A stretch of 64,000 nucleotides of DNA from Haliovirga abyssi (GTDB lineage Bacteria; Fusobacteriota; Fusobacteriia; Fusobacteriales; Haliovirgaceae). Positions 51,133 through 59,949 of this stretch are shown here, in pieces (position 1 is the stretch's first letter; the number at the start of each line of letters is the position of its first letter). The stretch is from positions 992,001 through 1,056,000 of the forward strand of contig NZ_AP027059.1 in the NCBI RefSeq assembly GCF_030295325.1, written 5' to 3'. Both the position numbers and the translations under genes were made by a program. The notes below the pieces were generated by a model. That model did not search any database, was not told the DNA's origin, and saw nothing but the letters and a program-made list of their open reading frames with translations.

Positions 51133-52105
51133 CTATTTTTTACGATCAAAAGTATTATATTTTTTAATCTTTAAAATTGGCTCAGTAGTATATCCAGCAG
51201 GTTTTACTCTCCAGGCTTCTATAAGTCTAGCCCAATAGTTGACCTTGGCCGCTAGGGTTGAGATCAATGTCATCAAGCTAAGGGGAATTAATGCAAATCA
51301 AAAGACCAACTCCTTCCTTCTTAGCGTTTTCTCTTGGCTAAGAGAAAACTAAAGTGCAGAATATTGAGAAAAAAGCATTAAAAAAGCCAAATATCCACGC
51401 TATAGGTTTCTCTTAGATAAGAGAAACCGACAACAAGGGAGGAGTAGAGTTTTTATAAAATCCTTAGCTTGATGACATTGGGGTTGAGATAGCTACAATT
51501 TCCTCTGGTGAGAATAATCGGCGAACATCCCCTAAAAGTTTACCATCAAAACTTACTGGAGTTTTAGACAAAGCACGAGAGTATCTTAATGCTGTTAATT
51601 CTCTTTTGGAAAAGCTACTAATTTTGCTTAATTTCTTTTTACACTGCAATCCTTGAATTTCTTCAGGAGTTATTTTATAATCTTTATATTGCCACGAATT
51701 TACATCAATGGCAAAAGGGCAAGAAACATAATATGACACCTGCATACGTATAAGATAAATCAAACGAGGCTTTAAAATTTTAGCAGCTCCTTTTTCAATA
51801 TACATTTCAAGAACTCCAGAAGCTACTCCTAAATCAGTTGACCAAGTAAGAATTCTTCCTGGTAAAAGCTCTTTTCCAAATTTTTTTTCAGCTTTATTAA
51901 GTAGTGTTTTAGAAAAATAAGAGATCTTTTCTGGTGGATTGATTAAACTTTTCATGGATTTATCCACTTCGTATGTCCATGATTTTTTTCCTCTGGGTAA
52001 AGGGTCAATAACATCTGCAGGTTGAAAGTGCTTTTTAGTAGTTGTGCAACTGTTTAATAAAAACAGTTCTAGAATAATAAAAATTGATGAAATAATTTTT
52101 TTCAT
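51133..52105 (-). pseudogene. Lipoprotein gene (AhpD/carboxymuconolactone decarboxylase-like) interrupted by a miniature element
   Basis: The ATG at 52105 begins a signal peptide with lipobox LLNSC (cleavage before the Cys). The rest resembles the CMD/AhpD peroxidase-like fold: YYVSCPFAIDVNSWQYKD, RYSRALSKTPVSFDGKL and FSPEEIVAIST. The typical CxxC is reduced to one cysteine (CPFA). The frame runs into the element at 51480 and stops after five foreign residues (PMSSS). The true C-terminus (LAAKVNYWARLIEAWRVKP...) is found at 51254-51133. Removing the element and one target copy gives 747 bases, a clean 248-residue frame. The truncated 213-residue product may still be made. Confidence 0.9.
51265..51480. 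mobile_element. 216 bp miniature transposable element, IS4/IS231-like ends
   Basis: Perfect 19 bp terminal inverted repeats: CAATGTCATCAAGCTAAGG at 51265-51283 and its complement at 51462-51480. Ten-base direct repeats GGGTTGAGAT flank it at 51255-51264 and 51481-51490. No transposase ORF is inside. The ends and the 10 bp duplication resemble IS231 (IS4 family: ends like CATGCCCATCAA, 10-12 bp duplications). Two internal hairpins, GTTTTCTCTT/AAGAGAAAAC (51326-51349) and GGTTTCTCTT/AAGAGAAACC (51405-51428), are near copies of each other. Confidence 0.92.
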
Positions 52106-59858: not shown

Positions 59859-59888
59859 AGTAAGGGCAATTCATGAATTGCCCCTACT
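59859..59888. repeat. REP-like palindrome GGGCAATTCATGAATTGCCC
   Basis: A perfect 20-base palindrome at 59864-59883, extended by AGTA...TACT with one mismatch. On the minus strand it reads GTAGGGGCAATT, the GTAG foot typical of REP hairpins. A partial copy (AAGGGTAATTCAT) includes the ileS stop codon at about 59824. No T-tract follows. The rest of the 59831-59949 gap has no gene. Confidence 0.7.
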
Positions 59889-59949
59889 TGAGATAATGCA
59901 ATTAATAGAATAGAATTAATTAAAAAATATAAAATATAGAAGGTGAAAA

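Follow-up and report, generated by a model that had tools for sequence, protein, structure and literature searches.

The element and the gene that it interrupts

Positions without a prefix are those of the window, by which I mean the whole 64,000-nt stretch of Haliovirga abyssi DNA that was analysed. The features of the locus, in order along the forward strand, are as follows:

51133 to 51264, minus strand: detached 3' part of a lipoprotein gene (C-terminus severed by the insertion)
51255 to 51264, no strand: left copy of the 10-bp target duplication GGGTTGAGAT, direct repeat
51265 to 51283, plus strand: left 19-bp terminal inverted repeat CAATGTCATCAAGCTAAGG, of apparent IS4-subgroup type
51300 to 51354, no strand: left arm of the cargo palindrome, with hairpin GTTTTCTCTTGGCTAAGAGAAAAC
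51400 to 51454, no strand: right arm of the cargo palindrome, with hairpin GGTTTCTCTTAGATAAGAGAAACC
51462 to 51480, minus strand: right 19-bp terminal inverted repeat, complementary to the left at every position
51464 to 52105, minus strand: truncated lipoprotein ORF of 213 aa, its terminal residues PMSSS derived from the element
51481 to 51490, no strand: right copy of the 10-bp target duplication GGGTTGAGAT, direct repeat

Sequence analysis of the window delimits an element of 216 bp (51265-51480), whose terminal inverted repeats are complementary at 19 of 19 positions and which is flanked by a perfect 10-bp duplication of GGGTTGAGAT. With up to three mismatches allowed, the 19-mer end occurs twice in the window and not once in 100 dinucleotide shuffles of it. 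The element has no long open frame, no coding capacity and no YREK DDE transposase. Terminal inverted repeats, target duplication, multiple copies (described below) and the lack of a transposase gene are the properties by which a MITE is recognized, and the element is confirmed as a recently mobile, non-autonomous transposon of this class. A preliminary description of the locus had claimed the perfect ends, the perfect duplication and the transposase-free interior, all confirmed here, and a recent non-autonomous insertion into a lipoprotein gene, which is supported.

When the flanks are joined with one copy of the target kept, they form a gene of 747 nt including the stop, with 248 codons, in which a 40-residue C-terminus follows residue 208. 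The present ORF stops five residues past the break (PMSSS). The lipoprotein has weak similarity to YciW-related and CMD families, and its group is rare in Fusobacteriota, homologues (L238, L239, L240) being found in just 3 of 97 other genomes of the phylum, at about 24% identity. All three align uninterrupted across the breakpoint, and because they do, the joined C-terminus can be considered real. The claim that excision restores the frame is thus borne out by the joined flanks and by homologues that span the break.

Copies, sister elements and palindromic interiors

Sequence searches of the H. abyssi genome (2.73 Mb in two contigs) were used to build an inventory of copies. The 216-bp element is complete at three places including the window, with 1-4 differences (the two further copies differ from the window element at 1 and 3 positions), and there are older truncated relatives of 90-94% identity. 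The copy at C1:74705-74920 (L032), also 216 bp and with one difference, has its own perfect duplication, AACTCTACCT. Its flank matches RF02012 (group II intron) in Rfam and a reverse-transcriptase-like ORF lies downstream, placing the copy beside a group II intron and probably within it. An integron context for this copy was rejected: the scan gave no attC-like pair, no integrase was recognized, and it is the intron match that adjoins. The third full copy (C1:220714-220929; L003 1501-1716) has no 10-bp duplication, for which recombination or an unusual insertion could account. It splits a GTAG-like palindrome (GTAGGGGTAGACC / GTCTACCC).

Further copies of the ends had been expected elsewhere in the genome, and a search for the end sequence found them, on at least two other types of element. 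A family of about 133 bp, represented by ten nearly full-length copies, has ends in common with the 216-bp element and a different interior, and a 182-bp element has the same ends around yet another. One 133-bp copy is flanked by the perfect duplication CCCCTTCTCC and is hosted by a free palindromic repeat, of which there is an uninterrupted relative at C1:2191030. Target duplications of 10 bp therefore flank the window element and two other elements of the genome. Since such duplications go together with near-identical copies at unrelated sites, transposition must have been recent. Three elements of the 133-bp type lie within the free palindromic repeat CAGACCTCAT...ATGAGGTCTG (L012, L009 and L014), one mobile palindrome inside another, and L042 is an uninterrupted relative of that host repeat.

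The interior of the 216-bp element is an interrupted palindrome of about 155 nt that contains two smaller hairpins, and the whole element has a predicted fold of -83 kcal/mol (z about -11). The interior resembles free-standing repeats without ends in the same genome (L038, L039, L042, L043) and in other Fusobacteriota (L047-L055), and the fetched flanks of the latter contain no end with fewer than five mismatches. Some free copies of the repeat carry a short inverted repeat of their own, CAGACCTCAT/ATGAGGTCTG. The 133-bp cargo consists of two GTAG-tagged hairpins in inverted arrangement (GTAGGGGCTTGCCGTTGGCAAGCCC) and has free-standing relatives of its own (L083, L084), so both cargo palindromes recur alone in the genome, as REP and BIME sequences do. 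A strict test for hairpins tagged with GTAG or CGTC was positive for the 133-bp cargo and negative for the 216-bp cargo. Because just 8 of 44 cargos among the matches listed are tagged by this test, membership in the REP superfamilies is not general. At about 59861-59890 the window also has a GTAG-type hairpin, GGGCAATTCATGAATTGCCCCTAC, that stands by itself without IS4-type ends.

Outside H. abyssi, when one genome of each species was scanned for exact matches to CAATGTCATCAAGYTAAG, at least 119 stretches were found, a raw count without chance control. The matches listed are mostly from Bacteroidota, and also from Bacillota, Chloroflexota, Desulfobacterota and Pseudomonadota. At least 41 places have an inverted partner at a distance of 90-450 bp, a set chosen by exact ends in which fragmented metagenome assemblies have more than their share and elements of the same assembly are non-independent. 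Among the matches listed, flanking decamers agree at 9 or 10 of 10 positions in 14 of the 41 pairs, and the cores, once the ends are removed, have a median fold z of -8.2, with z below -3 in 35 of 41. The corresponding values for control segments of equal length from the same loci are -0.5 and 3 of 80. The cores form at least 27 sequence clusters, three from the Haliovirga genome and about 24 unrelated clusters elsewhere. Many of the Bacteroidales copies among the matches listed sit in short palindromes such as CGTAGGCTGGAGCCTACG.

In a second fusobacterial genus, ends differing by one base surround several cargos: one related to that of the 216-bp element (81% over 48 nt; L257, duplication 9/10), one a GTAG-type hairpin pair (L264, duplication 9/10) and one of other sequence (L253, duplication 10/10). 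At another locus of the same genus (L266, 1197-1421), a 146-bp element and a GTAG hairpin pair are enclosed by two end pairs that overlap, in what looks like a nested or composite element. A 175-bp element from Anaerolineae (L140, 6483-6657) has a perfect 10-bp duplication and, at one side, two like-oriented IS4-type ends separated by 32 bp. In Tannerella sp. Ncb351_bin64, from termite gut, many contigs end within such elements (L087, L104, L115 and other loci), and for that reason the family is probably high-copy there; the flanks are palindromes such as CGTCAGTTAAAACTGACG.

The reading that I prefer, and consider very probably correct, is that the window element is a MITE that moved in trans by way of its IS4-subgroup-like ends, with a palindromic repeat as cargo. 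The literature usually derives MITEs by internal deletion, and the element might accordingly be a plain deletion derivative of an IS4-subgroup IS, its interior a left-over that is palindromic by chance. This is unlikely, since the interior matches free repeats that have no ends, shows no similarity to the transposases of the matching ISs, and is replaced in other same-ended elements by unrelated but likewise palindromic sequences. To judge from these comparisons of sequence, what lies between the ends is a palindromic repeat in its own right that serves as cargo, and not the remnant of a deleted IS.

The family of the ends and the search for a transposase

Ends of the IS231 subgroup begin with CAT and have the signature CAT-------AA--TAA---; those of the IS4 subgroup have the signature -AATR--------WTW and are accompanied by duplications of 10-13 bp (PMC2266710). 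The ends of the 216-bp element start with CAA, and they match the IS4-subgroup signature everywhere but at position 14, where they have C and sister ends, for example that at C1:496847, have T. The 10-bp duplication lies in the IS4-subgroup range. By their letters, then, the ends would be classed as of IS4-subgroup type with one signature position relaxed. The preliminary description had seen in them a resemblance to IS231 of the IS4 family. The family stands, but the IS231 label for CAATGTCATCAAGCTAAGG is contradicted by the published signature, because IS231 ends have T at position 3 and these have A. A MITE derived from IS231, with its parent still resident in the genome, would be served by IS4-family ends in general and by the 10-bp duplication, which IS231 also makes, but with CAA in place of CAT and no intact PF01609 transposase in the genome, it is very improbable.

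That last result comes from a profile search, which found no intact PF01609 transposase in the genome and just one decayed stretch below the cut-off. The remnant, at C1:377611, was rejected as a partner, being interrupted by six stops and without similarity to the transposases of the matching ISs. A profile made from six matching transposases found nothing in the genome at E<=1. The full-length IS with the same ends that had been predicted elsewhere in the genome was therefore not found by either search. Within the reach of these searches, the 216-bp element is at present an orphan, whose current mobility is left unproven by the absence of a partner; the loss of a partner transposase does not exclude an element from the MITE class.

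Autonomous ISs with near-identical ends and a PF01609/YREK transposase do occur in other bacteria. Two of the full-length ISs have perfect 10/10 duplications: L208 (1679 bp, ends CAATGTCATTTAGATAAG, duplication GGGATATTGG) and L231 (1718 bp, duplication AAGTCTGAAC). Others are L219 and, on a Desulfosarcina plasmid, L205 (1479 bp). The full-length ISs match the ends at 15-17 of 18 positions, an exact match being found only at the left end of an Ornithinibacillus IS that is split across contigs.

Two other vehicles were considered. The candidate for a RAYT partner, the sole Y1_Tnp match in the genome (C1:1859497-1859856; L010), a 148-aa frame, is probably IS200-like, judging by its length and flanks. 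A lone IS4-type end with one mismatch lies about 335 bp from it (C1:1859144-1859162; L010). Carriage by phage was rejected, the 18-mer of the end being at chance level in viral contigs, with 1 match vs 5 for the reversed pattern.

Least probable of all is that the host maintains the palindrome as an RNA or terminator, a useful hairpin whose mobility is incidental or ancient: the extreme stability of the fold and the many intergenic relatives would fit, but the window copy disrupts a gene, recent transposition is evident from the target duplications and from near-identical copies at unrelated sites, a scan found no terminator-like site, and at the element Rfam offered no family above threshold, only sub-threshold microRNA matches.

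Mechanism and relation to known systems

If the MITE moved in trans, as I prefer to think, the enzyme would have been an IS4-type DDE transposase acting on the 19-bp ends and supplied, presumably, by an IS since lost from the genome or only transiently present. Insertion into the lipoprotein gene with a 10-bp stagger would have duplicated the target and produced a lipoprotein without its last 40 residues. The cargo may have come between the ends by either of two routes: the ends might insert into or beside palindromes, two insertions perhaps bracketing one, or a REP-like element might perhaps insert into a MITE. Each half of this mechanism has a precedent, since ISRm22 targets REPs (PMC1525189) and QMITE2 encloses a GTAG REP (PMC5896051).

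A broader proposal I put forward tentatively, holding its chances to be a little short of even: that the conserved IS4-type end pair CAATGTCATCAAGYTAAG crosses phyla as a portable wrapper for REP-like palindromes that would otherwise be immobile, and that IS4-family transposases spread these in trans, often into other palindromes. If true, it would give mobility and exchange of cargo to repeats without a dedicated transposase, for example the CGTC repeats. The spread of REP-like palindromes is only partly understood, and same-ended elements suggest a second, directly testable route. It would also be an alternative to seeing short REP-like copies only as decayed MITEs, a view that may be drawn from PMC5896051, where short copies of QMITE2 that lack ends are said to resemble REPs.

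With ISs of the IS4 subgroup (PMC2266710) these elements share the end signature -AATR...WTW and the 10-bp duplications, and the ISs with near-identical ends carry PF01609/YREK transposases. The window element differs in having 216 bp, no transposase gene and an unrelated palindromic repeat as its interior. QMITE2 of Coxiella burnetii, as described in the consulted passages of PMC5896051, is a MITE that measures 150-190 bp, has direct repeats of 7-11 bp and encloses a GTAG REP. It is similar as a MITE that encloses a REP-like palindrome between direct repeats, but it has one cargo in one species, whereas here one end pair surrounds many unrelated cargos in several phyla. Those passages report no link of QMITE2 to IS4. 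ISRm22 of Sinorhizobium meliloti is an IS4-family IS that inserts into REP palindromes with reported 6-bp duplications (PMC1525189). It too connects the IS4 family with REP palindromes, but it is a full IS that takes the REP as target and not as cargo.

The mobile insertion cassettes (MIC231) of the IS231 group, named in PMC2266710, likewise enclose unrelated DNA in IS4-family ends and lack a transposase. Their passengers are genes and not, as in the present elements, a non-coding palindrome, and the present ends differ from those of IS231. RAYT transposases are held responsible for GTAG REPs, and for CGTC REPs no transposase is known (PMC3733652). The 133-bp sister element resembles REPs and BIMEs in bearing an inverted pair of GTAG-tagged hairpins; bounding repeats of IS4 type are not normal for REPs, and the 216-bp cargo is untagged in the strict test. 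A Thiomargarita MITE with 10-bp direct and 19-bp inverted repeats, whose parent is not known (PMC4853749), may, going by its description alone, belong with these elements.

MITEs, and a MITE that encloses a REP (QMITE2), are already known, and the window element taken alone is an ordinary recent MITE insertion with ends of IS4-subgroup type. In print, the core of the end sequence turned up only in two papers, both unrelated. What is new, being absent from the literature searched, is one IS4-type end pair around interchangeable REP-like palindromes in several phyla.
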